DNA from: Cyanobacterium sp. Dongsha4
GTDB taxonomy: Bacteria; Cyanobacteriota; Cyanobacteriia; Cyanobacteriales; Cyanobacteriaceae
Assembly: GCF_036345015.1 (NCBI RefSeq)
Contig: NZ_CP084098.1
Location: 1,873,326 to 1,937,325, forward strand
Direction of reading: 5' to 3'
Length of the DNA: 64,000 bases
In this document: one piece after another, positions 1,955-63,017 of the stretch
Position numbering within the stretch: position 1 is the first letter of the stretch
Layout of the letters: each line of letters opens with the position of its first letter
Notes under the pieces: generated by a model
Databases searched by the model: none
What the model saw: the letters and a program-made list of their open reading frames with translations, nothing else
What the model was told of the DNA's origin: nothing
Translations under genes and position numbers: made by a program

Positions 1955-2108
1955 AAGTTGGAGGTTCAGAAAAAAGTTTCAGGTTTGAGGTGTTAAGGTA
2001 TTAGGAAATGAGGGGAGACGAGTTCGGAGTTATTAATTATCAACTATTTACCTTTGCCCTCCTCCCTATTTAGGGGAGATAAAGGGGGGTTTGCCTCCTA
2101 CCCTCAAA
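1955..2108. repeat. Composite intergenic repeat copy plus palindromic repeat
   Basis: The 438 bp gap between dapF and the DUF1830 gene contains a copy of the dispersed composite repeat: TTAAGGTATTAGG-like octamers, GAGTTCGGAGTT heptamers at about 2020-2032, then TTATTAATTATCAACTATT and TTTGCCC. It is followed by a copy of the second repeat in inverted sense around 2066-2098 (TTTAGGGGAGATAAAGGGGGG). No gene is visible in the rest of the gap, which is AT-rich. Confidence 0.7.
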
Positions 2109-7081: not shown

Positions 7082-7084
7082 AGC

Positions 7085-10689: not shown

Positions 10690-10797
10690 ACAATAACTTG
10701 AGTAAGGCAATTAGGAATTAGTAATTAGTAATTAATTAAAACCGTCAAACCTGACACCTGACCTTATTCGACATTTTTAAGCCCAACTGAGGTTATC
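10690..10797 (-). repeat. Composite repeat copy with a left-type terminus
   Basis: Reading the minus strand from 10797, the terminus AACCTCAGTTGGGCTTAA is followed by GTCGAATAAGG, TCAGGTGTCAGG-type units and TTAATTAATTACTAATTACT. The 16 bases at 10785-10800 (AACTGAGGTTATCACA) recur exactly at 57318-57333, next to the IS982-like remnant. It lies between menG and the RND pump. Confidence 0.6.
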
Positions 10798-20299: not shown

Positions 20300-20457
20300 A
20301 GTTTTGTCTGGGTATCAGTGTCAGATTGCAGGTGTTAGGGTGATGAGGTGATGAGGGGAGAGGGAGAAATGAGTTAGGAGTTCGGAGTTAGGAGTTCGGA
20401 GTTCGGAGTTTTTAATTCTTAATTATCAACTATTAACTATTAACTAATTGCCCTTTG
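20300..20457 (+). repeat. Composite repeat copy with the best heptamer run
   Basis: From about 20372 to 20412 a seven-copy run of the heptamer GAGTTCG/GAGTTAG is visible, preceded by GGTGTTAGGGTGATGAGG-like units and followed by TTAATTCTTAATTATCAACT, ACTATTAACTA and TTGCCC. The right edge stops exactly at the rlmL stop codon (20458-20460), so the terminal part is missing or replaced by the gene. Confidence 0.75.
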
Positions 20458-22157: not shown

Positions 22158-22340
22158 AAGAGGTGTCAGGTTTCGGGTGTCAGGCTTAACGGTTGCAGGT
22201 GTTGGAATATTTAGGGATGGGGAGAGGAGGAAAGGTTAATTAAACACTTTTGCCCTACCCCCTCGAGAGGCAAGGGGTTTCATTTAAGGGGAGACACAGA
22301 GAAGTTTCTCTCTTGCTTTGTCTTAATTACTAATTCCCAT
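22158..22340. repeat. Composite repeat copy plus inverted palindromic repeat
   Basis: GGTGTCAGGTTTCGGGTGTCAGG units, GTTAATTAAACACTTTTGCCC and TTAATTACTAATTCCCATTGCC represent the composite repeat, here without clear heptamers. Inside it at about 22274-22312 is a minus-orientation copy of the second, palindromic repeat (minus strand: CTCTGTGTCTCCCCTTAAAT). Confidence 0.6.
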
Positions 22341-24063: not shown

Positions 24064-24064
24064 A

Positions 24065-24236
24065 AAATAATTAGGAGTTAAGAGTTAGAAATTAATTAAA
24101 CACTGTTGCCTCTTACCCTCCCCCCTATTTAAGCGAGACAAGGTTTACCCTTTGCCCTTTTCTCCATCACTGATAGATGAACATTCATCCCGAACTCAGA
24201 TAAAATAGCACTTATCCGATATTTTCTGCTAAACAA
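24065..24236 (+). repeat. Composite repeat with right-type end and adjacent left-type end
   Basis: TTAGGAGTTAAGAGTTAG heptamers are followed by ATTAATTAAACACTGTTGCC, a degenerate palindromic repeat (CCCCTATTTAAGCGAGAC), TTTGCCCTTTTCTCCATCAC and the right-type end TCATCCCGAACTCAG near 24185-24199. Immediately after lies a sequence resembling the left-type end in opposite sense (CTTATCCGATATTTTC then AACTGAGG, about 24211-24242). Confidence 0.65.
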
Positions 24237-24255
24237 CTGAGGCAATAAAGCATTA

Positions 24256-28479: not shown

Positions 28480-28575
28480 TGTTATTTTGTTATTTTTCTC
28501 AATAAATTTTACGTCGATGAGCAATTAAGATGAAAGTAACTCTAAGAATATAGAAAGAATTTTACTCTCTAAGTT

Positions 28576-28715
28576 AACCTCAGTTCGGTTTAAGAATATC
28601 GGATTAAGGATAGTTATCAGGGTTTGAAGTTATAAGTTATTATTAACTATTTACCTTTGCCCCTTGCCCTTTTCACTATCACTCCATAGATGAAAATTTA
28701 TCTCAAACTCAGGTT
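28576..28715 (+). mobile_element. MITE-like element with inverted ends (best full copy)
   Basis: The left end AACCTCAGTTCGGTTTAA (28576-28593) and, in reverse complement, the right end AACCTGAGTTTGAGATAA (28698-28715) agree at 13 of 18 positions. Between them lie AAGAATATCGGATTAAGG, a degenerate GTTTGAAGTTATAAG heptamer part, TTATTATTAACTATTTACC and TTTGCCCCTTGCCC, then ATCACTCCATAGATGAAAAT. This is the most complete copy of the composite repeat, about 140 bp, with no coding capacity. It sits between divergently transcribed genes. No clear target duplication is visible. Confidence 0.6.
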
Positions 28716-28756
28716 ATATAAATTGATTTTAATTTTAGTTTTGTCAGAGGTTGATT

Positions 28757-34764: not shown

Positions 34765-34942
34765 ACTTCATTTCGAGGAAGGTATCAGAGTGTTAGGGAT
34801 TGGGAGGAAGTGGGGTTTTTGGGAGAAACGGGTTAGGTATTAGGAGTTAAGAGTTAGAAGTTATTAATTATCAACCATTTACCTTTGCCCTTTGACCTTT
34901 TCTCCATCACTCATAAATGAAAATTTATCCTGAGTTCAGGTG
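34765..34942 (+). repeat. Composite repeat copy with right-type end
   Basis: The 363 bp gap between hemL and the FAD/Rieske gene holds GGTATTAGGAGTTAAGAGTTAG units, TTATTAATTATCAACCATTT, TTTGCCCTTTGACC and the right-type end TTATCCTGAGTTCAGG near 34923-34941. A left end is not evident. The remaining bases are AT-rich and without a gene. Confidence 0.7.
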
Positions 34943-38219: not shown

Positions 38220-38343
38220 AGGGGCAAAGGTAATTAGTGAATAGTGAATAGTTGATAATTAAGAATTAAAAACTCCGAACACTTATTACTTATTTATTAT
38301 TTATTACTGGTTTCCCCCTATCCCCTAAACACCCTGACACCTC
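38220..38343 (-). repeat. Composite repeat copy, minus orientation
   Basis: On the minus strand the order is GGTGTCAGGGTGTTTAGGGG, then AGTGTTCGGAGTTTTTAATT, CTTAATTATCAACTATTCAC and CTTTGCCC, the same order as the plus-oriented copies. It lies between metF and the 344-residue protein gene, and neither terminal sequence is recognisable. Confidence 0.65.
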
Positions 38344-40685: not shown

Positions 40686-40826
40686 TTAGGGTATTGGAAT
40701 GATAGAGTATTGGGGTTTTAGGGGGAAATTTCTTTTTTATCTTAACTCCTAACTCCTAACTCAAATGATTGCCCCTTACCCTTTTGGCCATCACTCATAG
40801 ATGAAAATTTATCCCGAACTCAGGTT
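40676..40826 (+). repeat. Composite repeat copy with octamers, heptamers and right-type end
   Basis: Six period-8 units (ATTGGGGT, ATTAGGGT, and so on) run from about 40676 to 40727. CTAACTC-type heptamers in opposite sense follow at 40743-40763, then TTGCCCCTTACCC and the right-type end TTATCCCGAACTCAGGTT (40809-40826). It lies between the headless fragment and asnS, whose stop codon is 8 bp beyond. Together with the fragment it fills the 460 bp gap between trpS and asnS. Confidence 0.75.
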
Positions 40827-46084: not shown

Positions 46085-46234
46085 TTATCTGTATTCAGGA
46101 ATAGGCAAAGTTAAAAGAAAGTTAAAAGGGCAAAGGTAAATAATTATTAATAACTTCTAACTCCTAACTCATTTCTCCCCAATACCCCAACACCCTAGCC
46201 TTATCCGATATTCATAAACTAAACTGAGGTTTAA
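46085..46234 (-). repeat. Composite repeat copy with left-type end, minus orientation
   Basis: On the minus strand the left-type end AACCTCAGTTTAGTTTATGA and ATATCGGATAAGG (46234 downward) are followed by GGGTGTTGGGGTATTGGGG octamers, GAGTTAGGAGTTAGAAG heptamers, TTATTAATAATTATTTACC and TTTGCCCTTTTAAC. A right-type end is not evident. The left end closely matches that of the element at 28576, which confirms the order of parts. It lies between the amt gene and ribBA. Confidence 0.7.
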
Positions 46235-53122: not shown

Positions 53123-53386
53123 ATGGGAAAAGTAATTCTAATCTTTTTAATCAATATTTATCGACAATATATTTCCCCTTTATTTCCTCCTTCTTGTCGT
53201 TTTCAACCTACTTGCTCTCAATATGCGATCGCAGCTATTTCTACTTTTGGAGTTTGGAGAGGCAGTTATTTAGCAATCAAAAGAATTTTGCGGTGTCATC
53301 CTTTTCACCCCGGCGGTTATGATCCCGTTCCTTCCTCATTGGAGGAATTACTATTGAATAATAAAAAAAGGGCAAAAGGCAAATAG
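53123..53386 (+). CDS. yidD: Membrane protein insertion efficiency factor YidD
   Basis: This 87-residue membrane-associated protein has the invariant [15 protein letters not shown] (residues about 26-40) and [14 protein letters not shown] (about 61-74) that define YidD (DUF37). It assists YidC in inserting inner-membrane proteins. The usual rnpA-yidC neighbours are absent here. The C-terminal 15 residues are Lys-rich, running into repeat DNA. Confidence 0.93.
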
Positions 53387-53525
53387 TTGATAACTGATAA
53401 CTTCTAACTTCTAGCCCCGTTCACGACAGAAGGGAGTGCATGAGTACAGCGAACTCTCCGAACTAATCTCTCCCCAATACCCTAAGCCCCTAATACCCTA
53501 ATACCTTAATTCTTCTATCTCAACT
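53372..53525 (-). repeat. Composite repeat copy, minus orientation, overlapping yidD 3' end
   Basis: On the minus strand five period-8 units (TATTAGGG type) run from about 53511 to 53472, followed by GAGAGATTAGTTCGGAGAG, a unique-looking CTCATGCACTCCCTTCTG stretch, AGAAGTTAGAAGTTATCAG and TTTGCCTTTTGCCC. The last block overlaps the yidD 3' end, so the repeat supplies the final codons (KRAKGK) of YidD. Confidence 0.65.
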
Positions 53526-56927: not shown

Positions 56928-57254
56928 TTAAAAAATTGTAAATATTTTGATTATATAAAGAAATTTGCTTTTAAAATTATGCCCATAATATATGTGAATA
57001 TTTCTTAGATAACTGGGAAGTTTGGGAAAAGCAGAAGTCCAATATTGTTGAACGTGATTAAGATAAAAATGTTTGAAATTACGGTAATGATTTTGGTGAA
57101 AAGCAATGAGAATAGTCATAATTTCACTTAAACAGAGACTTTTAGTACGAACACGTTGGACAGCACCATGAGAGATAAGTTTTTGTTGCCATTGAAGCTC
57201 AAATTGTTGGCAGAAATCATCGACATGACAAAATAAATAATCTAAATTAAACAT
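56928..57254 (-). pseudogene. Truncated IS982-family transposase
   Basis: The first 83 or so residues (MFNLDYLFCHVDDFCQQFE, RVRTKSLCLSEIMTILIAFH, NFKHFYLNHVQQYWTSAFPK) match the N-terminus of IS982-type DDE transposases, which are normally about 290 residues. After FPKLPSYL (near 57005) similarity ends, and an unrelated 25-residue tail follows. The catalytic DDE residues are missing, so it cannot be active. Its upstream side (57255-57333) probably contains one IS terminus: minus strand AACCTCAGTTTTGGATAA at 57326-57309, which resembles the ends of the dispersed element. Confidence 0.75.
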
Positions 57255-57317
57255 AGGGCAGTAGTTAGTTGATGGTTTGTTATATTCAGCTTACTATCTG
57301 CCTGTTTTCTTATCCAA

Positions 57318-57484
57318 AACTGAGGTTATCACAAGTTCAAAAAGCAGTTATAGAACTTGATAAAAAAGGAATCTACCCTAGTGAATCTAACGTCTCCAAA
57401 TTTGTTAGGACACCAGGATACTTTCGTTATCAAGAAGTACGTTCTGCTTTGAAGAAAGCCAGAGATGATCTAGGAATTAGATAG
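57318..57484 (+). pseudogene. Headless C-terminal fragment of an unknown gene
   Basis: About 52 codons end at TAG 57482-57484. They encode RLSQVQKAVIELDKKGIYPS and SNVSKFVRTPGYFRYQEVRS, then a helix to GIR. It has the look of a helix-turn-helix C-terminal domain. The frame can be extended leftward to 57269, but the added residues come from the presumed IS terminus (AACTGAGGTTATCACA, 57318-57333), so the real gene lost its 5' part. It lies between the IS982 remnant and tRNA-Leu. The family is not recognised; a transposon- or plasmid-encoded protein is possible. Confidence 0.5.
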
Positions 57485-59267: not shown

Positions 59268-59455
59268 TTGCAATAAAAGGGCAAGGGGCAAAGTTGAAAG
59301 GGCAAACTCCTCTATGTCTCCCCCTTTAAGGGGAGAGGGGCAAAGATAAATAGTGTTGGGATGAATAATCCCTAACCCCTAAACTCGAACAAATCTCTCC
59401 TTAATACCCCAATCCCCTAATCCCCTATTACTTTTCCTTTCACTCACTGCCATTA
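59268..59455 (-). repeat. Composite repeat copy with embedded palindromic repeat
   Basis: On the minus strand TAATAGGGGATTAGGGGATT octamers (from about 59432) are followed by GAGTTTAGGGGTTAGGG, TATTTATCTTTGCCCC and TTGCCCCTTGCCC. The palindromic repeat (CTCCCCCTTTAAGGGGAG, 59318-59335) lies inside in plus orientation, showing that one repeat inserted into the other. It fills the gap between the HEAT gene and the convergent DUF262 gene. Confidence 0.7.
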
Positions 59456-61874: not shown

Positions 61875-63017
61875 ATGATTATAATTGGCTTAATGAGTGG
61901 CACTTCTGTAGATGGAATTGATGCCGCTATTGTTAATATTGAAGGACAAGGACTAGATTTAAAAGTAGATTTATTAGTAGGTCAAACTTTTTCTTATTCT
62001 CCCTCCTTGAGAGAGGAAATTTTGCAGGTTTGTGCGGGTAAATGTCTATCAATGGAAGAACTTAGCAAACTAGATAATGCGATCGCATCTGAATTTTCAC
62101 AAGCAGTTACAAATATAATTCCAGATAATTTAAAAGTTGATCTAATCGGTTCTCATGGTCAAACAGTATATCACCAACCACCACAAAAAAATCAGTTAGG
62201 CTACACCCTACAGTTAGGAAGGGGGGATTTAATCTCTTACTTAACAGGTATTAATACGGTAAGTAACTTTAGAGTGGCTGACATCGCCTTGGGAGGGCAA
62301 GGGGCGCCCTTAGTCTCAAAAATAGATGTATGTTTATATCGTCATCCCCATCATCATCGTTGTTTACAAAATATTGGCGGTATTGGTAACGCTACTTATC
62401 TTCCATCGAGTCATACACCCCAATGGCAAGAGAAAATTATGGGTTGGGATACAGGCCCCGGAAATGTTTTAATCGATTTAGCGGTGCAAGAATTAACCAA
62501 TAATCAACAAAAATTTGATTTTAATGGTGAATGGAGTCGTCAAGGAAAGCCCTGTCAAGCCTTAGTCAAAAAATGGTTAAATCAAGACTTTTTCAAGCAA
62601 AAACCACCAAAATCCACAGGCAGAGAGCTTTTTAGTCCTCATTACCTTCAACAATGTCTAAAAGATGCTCAGACTTATAATCTTTCTTCGGCGGATTGTC
62701 TTGCTACTCTCACAGAATTAACCGTTGCTTCCATTGCCGATAGTTACCATCGTTTTTTGCCATCTCCCCCCCATGAAGTAGTTTTAGCAGGAGGAGGAAG
62801 TCGCAATAGTTACTTAAAGGAGAGATTACAGGCACATTTGCCCCATTCCCGTCTTCTCAATAGTGATGATTTAGGTATTAGTAGTGAATTTAAAGAAGCG
62901 ATCGCATTTGCAATTTTAGCCTATTGGCATATTAACAACTTTCCGGGTAATCTACCACAGGTGACAGGGGCAACAAAAGAGGTTATTTTAGGACAGTATT
63001 ACCTCAGTCAGAGATAA
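61875..63017 (+). CDS. anmK: Anhydro-N-acetylmuramic acid kinase
   Basis: This 380-residue sugar kinase recycles 1,6-anhydro-MurNAc from peptidoglycan turnover to MurNAc-6-phosphate. The N-terminal GLMSGTSVDGIDAA (residues 5-18) and later GSHGQTVYHQPP (about 92-103), GGQGAPLV, WDTGPGNVLIDLAV (about 194-207) and VVLAGGGSRN are diagnostic. Length normal. It is the only wall-recycling gene here. Confidence 0.95.
   Translation: MIIIGLMSGTSVDGIDAAIVNIEGQGLDLKVDLLVGQTFSYSPSLREEILQVCAGKCLSMEELSKLDNAIASEFSQAVTNIIPDNLKVDLIGSHGQTVYHQPPQKNQLGYTLQLGRGDLISYLTGINTVSNFRVADIALGGQGAPLVSKIDVCLYRHPHHHRCLQNIGGIGNATYLPSSHTPQWQEKIMGWDTGPGNVLIDLAVQELTNNQQKFDFNGEWSRQGKPCQALVKKWLNQDFFKQKPPKSTGRELFSPHYLQQCLKDAQTYNLSSADCLATLTELTVASIADSYHRFLPSPPHEVVLAGGGSRNSYLKERLQAHLPHSRLLNSDDLGISSEFKEAIAFAILAYWHINNFPGNLPQVTGATKEVILGQYYLSQR

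Follow-up and report, generated by a model that had tools for sequence, protein, structure and literature searches.

The window analysed here is a 64-kb stretch of the genome of Cyanobacterium sp. Dongsha4 (G000:C1:1873326-1937325 in the 4.32-Mb host genome) with a GC content of 35%, in which GCGATCGC occurs 37 times, far above chance by arithmetic; such an abundance of this octamer suggests a cyanobacterium. At 28577..28714 on the forward strand it holds a complete family-A element of 138 bp (ACCTCAG...CTCAGGT), in which imperfect inverted ends enclose an ordered octamer/heptamer block. The left terminal end, ACCTCAGTTCGGTTTAAGAATATC (28577..28600, +), is an exact match to the left end found genome-wide; the internal tandem-repeat block (28601..28688, +) is made up of degenerate octamer and heptamer runs together with TTATTAACTATTTACC and TTTGCCCCTTGCCC; and the right terminal end, GATGAAAATTTATCTCAAACTCAGGT, occupies 28689..28714 (+). 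A preliminary description of positions 28576-28715 had named these features, and they are found where it placed them; it had also noted that the left end is inverted relative to the right, and by eye AACCTCAGTTCGGTTTAA does agree with the reverse complement of the right end of the same copy at 13 of 18 positions. The flanks of this copy have only TA in common, so that it is without a surviving target duplication. It is a small, protein-less mobile element whose movement is very probably due to the enzyme of a known insertion sequence (IS) family.

Pattern and similarity searches give the genome-wide picture in the host. A similarity search with positions 28560-28730 returned 60 matches; the right-end pattern (28 bases, up to three mismatches) occurs 58 times in the 4.32-Mb genome, seven of them exact, and the left-end pattern (26 bases, up to three mismatches) 90 times, with the reversed pattern giving zero matches in either case. 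Where a left and a right end lie within 600 bp of each other, 20 of 21 pairs are on the same strand in left-to-right order, spaced 112-546 bp apart, one of the 20 (2709986/2710308) being a B left end and a B right end ahead of an A right end; left-only and right-only copies are common as well. Two related families can be distinguished, A, which terminates in ...GATGAAAATTTATCCCGAACTCAGGT, and B, which has the left end ...ATATCCG and terminates in ...TTTCAGCTTATCCAAAACTCAGGT. End-bearing copies share one boundary, ACCT...AGGT, and on this condition, one of two set in the preliminary description, the outcome speaks for a mobile unit.

Fifty-five complete copies, a subset of all copies, were examined for target duplications (30 from the host and 25 from G001, a genome of the same genus with 91-97% identity over aligned blocks of the window; 37 of family A and 18 of family B, including six B entries of ~100 bp that probably begin at an internal B motif). 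The 37 family-A copies are 134-303 bp long, save one of 572 bp. Direct repeats of at least 5 bp, all of them 6-9 bp, flank 20 of the 55 and are missing from 35, as compared with a mean of 2.19 and a maximum of 8 of 55 when the right flanks were shuffled 2000 times. By family, the duplications are found at 10 of 37 A copies and 10 of 18 B copies (shuffled maximum 6 in both cases); for family A of the host taken alone the count, 5 of 21, is reached or exceeded by some shuffles (maximum 6). The duplicated sequences, for example TAAATA, TAACTA, TAATTA, TACATA, TATTATTA, TAATCTTA and TAACAAATA, are typically of the form TA..TA, and the unit is thus ACCT...AGGT in a TA(N)TA target.

In 49 of these copies (the six B entries under 110 bp being dropped), open frames and gene directions were checked, and none of the 49 is crossed from flank to flank by an open frame of 100 amino acids or more. 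On the left, 40 copies have a gene in reach, and in 31 of them the nearest one has its 3' end toward the element; on the right this is so in 32 of 37, and where there are genes on both sides they converge in 21 of 32. Such a bias toward 3' ends would be expected under selection against insertion in promoters and genes. At three host loci (L040, L058 and L078) another element adjoins or lies within MITE copies; by sequence reading its first gene resembles an IS1-type InsA.

The preliminary description had made the idea of a mobile unit depend on the existence of empty orthologous sites, and these occur in both directions between the host and G001. The joined flanks of 12 host copies were compared with G001 and those of 14 G001 copies with the host; one of the 12 and two of the 14 yielded good empty sites, and most tests were uninformative. 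Among the host copies, L016 is empty in G001, L070 and L002 are occupied, and L007 is occupied by a block with a right end; the flanks of L055 lie at distant places, a single flank was matched for L062, L013, L037, L053 and L052, and L012 and L072 gave no trustworthy match. In the other direction, L092 13148 and 180800 are empty in the host, 199101 is a repeat within a repeat, and L093 4640 offers only 20 bp of left flank. As for the rest, L185 is occupied, L182 aligned poorly, the site of the B copy at 211600 has different repeat content in the host, L176 has 556 bp of other DNA between its flanks, L184 has its flanks at distant places, L170 matched by one flank, L179 matched many blocks and was unusable, and the host gave no orthologous match for L175, for L183 or for the L089 B copy.

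The clearest case is the family-A copy at G001:C1:133149-133395, of which the host lacks all 247 bp, both ends as well as the block: the host has one TAATTA, G001 has TCATTA on the left and TAATTA on the right, and 120 bp of flank on each side align save for one substitution and an offset of 4 bp where the two sides join. A B-type copy at G001:C1:180800-181004 is likewise absent in the host, which has one TACTTA, with flanks of 120 bp on the left and 43 less well matching bp on the right. The B copy at G001:C1:199101-199304 lies inside another repeat, of which the host has the uninterrupted form with one TAACAAATA. In the reverse direction, a 269-bp host copy at 2978580 is absent in G001; the site there contains an additional 10 bases, which may be a scar left by excision or a tandem duplication.

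Where both genomes are occupied, the interiors of the blocks differ strongly while the ends and flanks are conserved; the lengths at two orthologous A sites are 140 versus 248 bp and 142 versus 155 bp. Ends, too, differ between the two genomes. The G001 ortholog of the 28576 site has the right end and is without the left end and ~30 bp of flank; at 34765 each genome has a different end, the host the right one and G001 the left one. Differences of this kind account for the one-ended copies, and we infer that they are losses rather than gains. Between the window and G001 the alignment is interrupted inside the block gap 24064-24255, and this, along with the widely separated flanks of L055 and L184, makes rearrangement at the repeats likely.

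Fifteen gaps of the window had been put forward in the preliminary description as copies of a single mobile unit with the same parts in the same order. A scan that allowed up to seven mismatches, a level at which chance produced 0-2 left ends and not one right end in each of three shuffled windows, detects an end in six of them (10649, 24064, 28525, 34683, 40374 and 46057) and in none of the other nine; a further left end at 63001 is probably due to chance. Only the gap at 28525-28750 has both ends. Family-A right ends follow a repeat block at 24176..24201 (+), where no left end was found in the gap and the G001 alignment stops at 24080 within it; at 34916..34941 (+), the site with a left end and no right end in G001; and at 40800..40825 (+), also without a left end and not seen in the G001 ortholog, in a gap (40374) whose heptamers are on the opposite strand. 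The left end in opposite orientation that had been reported for the copy at 46085 is indeed there, at 46207..46230 (-), with the repeat block on its inner side; the G001 ortholog keeps this left end, and a right end was found neither in the window gap nor in that ortholog. A degenerate inverted left end with four mismatches in 24 by eye lies beside a short block at 10770..10793 (-).

Blocks in which ends were not found lie at 1978..2058 (+) and 20327..20446 (+), both with the same module order, and at 22164..22255 (+), 38222..38262 (-), 53370..53510 (-) and 59286..59427 (-). Compared with G001, those at 20327 and 53370 have other unit numbers, that at 22164 has mostly different content, and that at 38222 is almost the same with a 21-bp length change nearby; the gap at 7082 yielded no module with the module patterns used. 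None of the window's own gaps has a cleanly empty ortholog in G001. The order of modules extends well beyond the window: of 126 module pairs in 60 stretches, half of which run upstream from right ends and half downstream from left ends (30 of the 58 right-end copies and 30 of the 90 left-end copies), 122 follow the order that had been described, and each module is present in at most four of 30 control stretches taken ~1 kb away.

The blocks themselves reach farther than the ends. Of 13 other genomes from the host's family, 11 gave matches to an A element used as query, and at the four family places displayed the block is matched and no end is visible; the A right end, at up to three mismatches, is found in 0 of the 13. 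The left end is found in three of the 13, at five places that all belong to one genus (G008:C1:3380545, 3576724 and 3847703; G012:C20:10490; G010:C122:35788), as the variant ACCTCAGTTCGATGTAAGAATATCGG, one of them further changed, and these places are probably a related element present in few copies. In a further genus (G009) the sequence ATCTCGAACTCAGGTTA, a related right end with six mismatches, comes directly after a TTGCCC-type block. Blocks next to IS982-like ends thus occur outside the host genus as well, and the association of block and end may predate that genus. The blocks are also entered by elements. Three B copies of the host (L063, L066 and L075) have inserted inside blocks with exact duplications, the G001 A copy at 133149 likewise lies inside a block, and TTAATTATCAACTATT-type DNA contains TAATTA and TAACTA, which are usable as targets. 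The blocks thus look like a wider repeat class that is carried by the element and is also hit by it as a target.

These results bear on two opposite ways of seeing the repeat gaps. In one, they would be independent short-tandem-repeat arrays of the cyanobacterial intergenic kind, beside which the ends are incidental and no unit moves; the nine end-less gaps among the 15, the sharing of the end-less blocks at 20300 and 38220 by host and G001, and the family-wide distribution of the block with that of the right end set against it all speak for this. As a general explanation, however, it is highly improbable, given the exact common boundaries, the excess of duplications over shuffled flanks and the related ends in two other genera; and the empty sites, which are without ends and block together, refute it for the end-bearing copies; for the end-less blocks it may still hold. 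In the other, every end-less block would be a decayed copy of the same or related mobile units, and only such elements would spread blocks. The missing ends on one side at 28576 and 34765 in host and G001, the frequency of left-only and right-only copies with an unchanged module order, the block with a related end in G009 and the left-end-like sequences in three genomes of a third genus make this easier to entertain, but it has to contend with the blocks in other genera at which no end is visible (the four family places displayed) and with elements that inserted into blocks already present, and we regard it as rather unlikely.

Between the two, the claim that there is one mobile unit here stands for the end-bearing copies, on the strength of their boundaries, duplications, empty sites and IS982-like ends, and is not shown for the nine of 15 gaps in which no end is detected, where the neighbouring blocks may be worn-down copies or independent repeats. 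The accompanying statement that these are not independent microsatellites goes too far, since the blocks are more widely spread than the ends and elements insert into existing blocks.

The candidate for the mover came to light through its transposase family rather than through long pairs of left and right ends (up to 4 kb listed). The host has 11 full-length copies of an IS982-family IS of 964 bp, with ACCT ends and an IS982-type DDE transposase (NF033520, 4e-81; PF13612, 4e-72). Six of the ten copies examined, the reference copy among them, are identical, and eight of the ten have duplications of 6-8 bp that are mostly of the same TA..TA kind as those of the element. Of the 20 bases compared at each of its ends, ACCTCAGTTTTGGATAAG and ACCTGAGTTTTGGTTAAG, the B ends share 16 and 18 and the ends of one A copy 15 and 14, so that they are similar and not identical; position 5 is common to the IS982 and MITE ends, C in left ends and G in right ends. 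In the window itself, 57008..57326 (-) is a truncated copy of the host IS982 (positions 1-319, 99.7% identical) with a terminal end and the N-terminus of the transposase. In a related genus (G003, L117), an IS982 with the duplication TACTTA has the end ACCTGAGTTCGGGATAA, the same as the A right end at 17 of 17 bases. A scan for the 19-mer TAACCTGAGTTCGGGATAA in one genome per species across 84,980 species gave at least 118 loci; among the matches listed, 24 of 118 hold an IS982 homologue, and in all 24 it lies within 1.5 kb of the 19-mer. Other transposases beside TAACCTGAGTTCGGGATAA were sought among 59 open-frame candidates, of which the 25 longest were read by eye at their starts. Inverted pairs of TAACCTGAGTTCGGGATAA 199-312 bp apart were seen at five of the 118 loci listed (L222, L242, L277, L314 and L323), all in other bacteria, with L242 and L277 from a Methyloprofundus MAG; these pairs look like MITE-like units with the same ends.

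Another transposase with similar ends, and not IS982, could be the mover, and the sister genome lends this some appeal: G001 is the richest in copies, with 113 A right ends (41 exact) and 298 left ends as against 58 (seven exact) and 90 in the host, yet it has no intact IS982 gene, a search with the IS982 model returning no match and one with the protein only fragments. Against this, the A right end is matched exactly by a terminus of the IS982 in G003, the 24 listed loci that hold an IS982 homologue all have it no farther than 1.5 kb from the 19-mer, the length and mostly TA..TA form of the duplications agree with IS982, and G001 itself harbours a 350-bp internally deleted IS982 with both ends kept (L338 1350-1699). 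We therefore consider a different mover improbable. The deleted copy suggests that G001 probably had an IS982 earlier, and it is possible that it represents the birth stage of a MITE; the mover in G001 may have been lost, or may differ from the IS seen there. A decayed second IS982-type element beside a family-A right end (L112, ~1055-1797) was considered as the parent of family A and rejected, its ends being ACCCRAGTTGCTAGTTA by eye. Three weak 166-aa matches to PF13612 were also set aside; the one that was read, L110, looks by eye like another transposase type, and no end was found there at fewer than four mismatches.

How does this element compare with known systems? IS982 family members have ends that start with AC, direct repeats of variable length and a mean length of ~1 kb, and a member from Nostoc, ISNsp1, has inverted repeats of 16/17 and a direct repeat of 6 bp (PMC7335449). 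The end logo given there, AC(N)6T(N)5TT, is fitted by the element in its AC(N)6T, whereas the element has TA where the logo has TT and is without a transposase gene; by eye, T9 and T15 are present, and an A stands at position 16 of the ends of A, B and the host IS982 alike.

An IS982-family MITE has been reported from a Cardinium endosymbiont: MITECca01 is ~240 bp long, has no transposase gene and is present in 169 copies (PMC9769881). As described there, it resembles the element here in its IS982-like ends, its many copies and its mostly intergenic siting, with some copies also inside other mobile elements. It differs, in this comparison by description, in that its ends keep short stretches of the parent and that it belongs to another bacterial group, and tandem-repeat cargo is not mentioned in the available parts of the description (PMC9769881).

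A parallel in architecture is BrickBuilt of Porphyromonas gingivalis, in which 11 of 19 copies have both leader and tail, three the leader only, two the tail only and three neither (PMC4596501). There too a tandem block is enclosed by a leader and a tail whose inverted ends are short, in intergenic DNA and with a unit number that varies between strains, but BrickBuilt has a single 23-nt unit and IS5-like ends in contrast to the several ordered 7-8-nt units and IS982-like ends seen here, and its authors state that the unit has no matches beyond the species (PMC4596501). The element here works like BrickBuilt and is not a member of it.

Small, multi-copy intergenic units with inverted ends are also described from Anabaena sp. 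90, where the authors could not tie them to any insertion sequence (PMC3542288), and the cyanobacterial MITEs in a review are likewise small, multi-copy and inverted-ended (PMC10969869); the text of neither paper mentions IS982. Cyanobacterial heptamer arrays, as described in the part of PMC4692102 available, resemble those here in being intergenic, head-to-tail and variable in number; the heptamers here occur with and without ends, and their likeness to such arrays (STRR) is one of description. In such parts of the open-licence literature as were available, including PMC9208149, neither an IS982 MITE from a cyanobacterium nor one that carries heptamer arrays is described. Judging by these partial sources, minisatellite MITEs, IS982 MITEs and cyanobacterial MITEs are already known separately, and an IS982 MITE with heptamer arrays is a new combination.

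We hold it highly probable that, taken as a whole, an IS982-type MITE with tandem-repeat cargo, mobilized in trans and subject to block turnover and end loss, explains what is seen. An IS982-family transposase acting in trans, the mover that the sequences point to, would recognize the left end ACCTCAGTTCGGTTTAAG and the right end, read inward, ACCTGAGTTCGGGATAA, and the unit, itself without a gene, inserts in AT-rich intergenic DNA, mostly where neighbouring genes have their 3' ends, with a duplication of 6-9 bp that takes the form TA(N)TA. Its cargo is the ordered block of octamer and heptamer tandem repeats. Blocks of this kind are also free-standing in the genome and in related genera, and with targets available in their TTAATTA/TAACTA stretches, elements jump into blocks as well. 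After insertion, the length and make-up of the block change fast, presumably driven by slippage and recombination, and deletions that reach the block would remove one end and some flank to leave left-only, right-only and end-less remnants. We infer the direction of change at each site and the share of the end-less blocks that are decayed copies.

In cyanobacteria, the heptamer arrays found in the spaces between genes have for a long time been regarded as microsatellite-like, and the small dispersed repeats (SDR) of Nostoc have units of 21-27 nt. The route by which the same ordered blocks come to lie in many gaps is not known to be settled, and cyanobacterial heptanucleotide arrays are not known to travel as cargo between IS982 ends. 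A carrier that has exact ends, duplicates its target and can be paired with a candidate transposase explains part of this dispersal. It is tempting to go a step further and propose, tentatively and as something we would put at rather less than an even chance, that an IS982 MITE captured ordered heptamer/octamer arrays that existed already and became their vehicle, with cargo and target feeding each other. If so, self-nesting could explain the spread and turnover of ordered heptamer arrays between genes, and some of the breaks in gene order that fall at arrays between sister genomes could be explained as well. With a near-uniform IS982 in the host, and IS982 fragments and more MITE ends in G001, the pair makes gain, decay and end loss directly measurable.

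Three further differences between the host and G001 were noticed along the window. G001 has an insertion relative to the host at window position ~31156. At ~48211 (G001:C1 ~158976) there is a lone right-end-like ATCGAACTCAGGTA, and ~146 bp that precede it in the host are absent in G001. Finally, at ~55547 (G001:C1 ~151408-151590) G001 alone has an insert of ~190 bp with the ends TTAACCTTGGTC...GAACTCAGATAA, which is possibly a third related MITE family.
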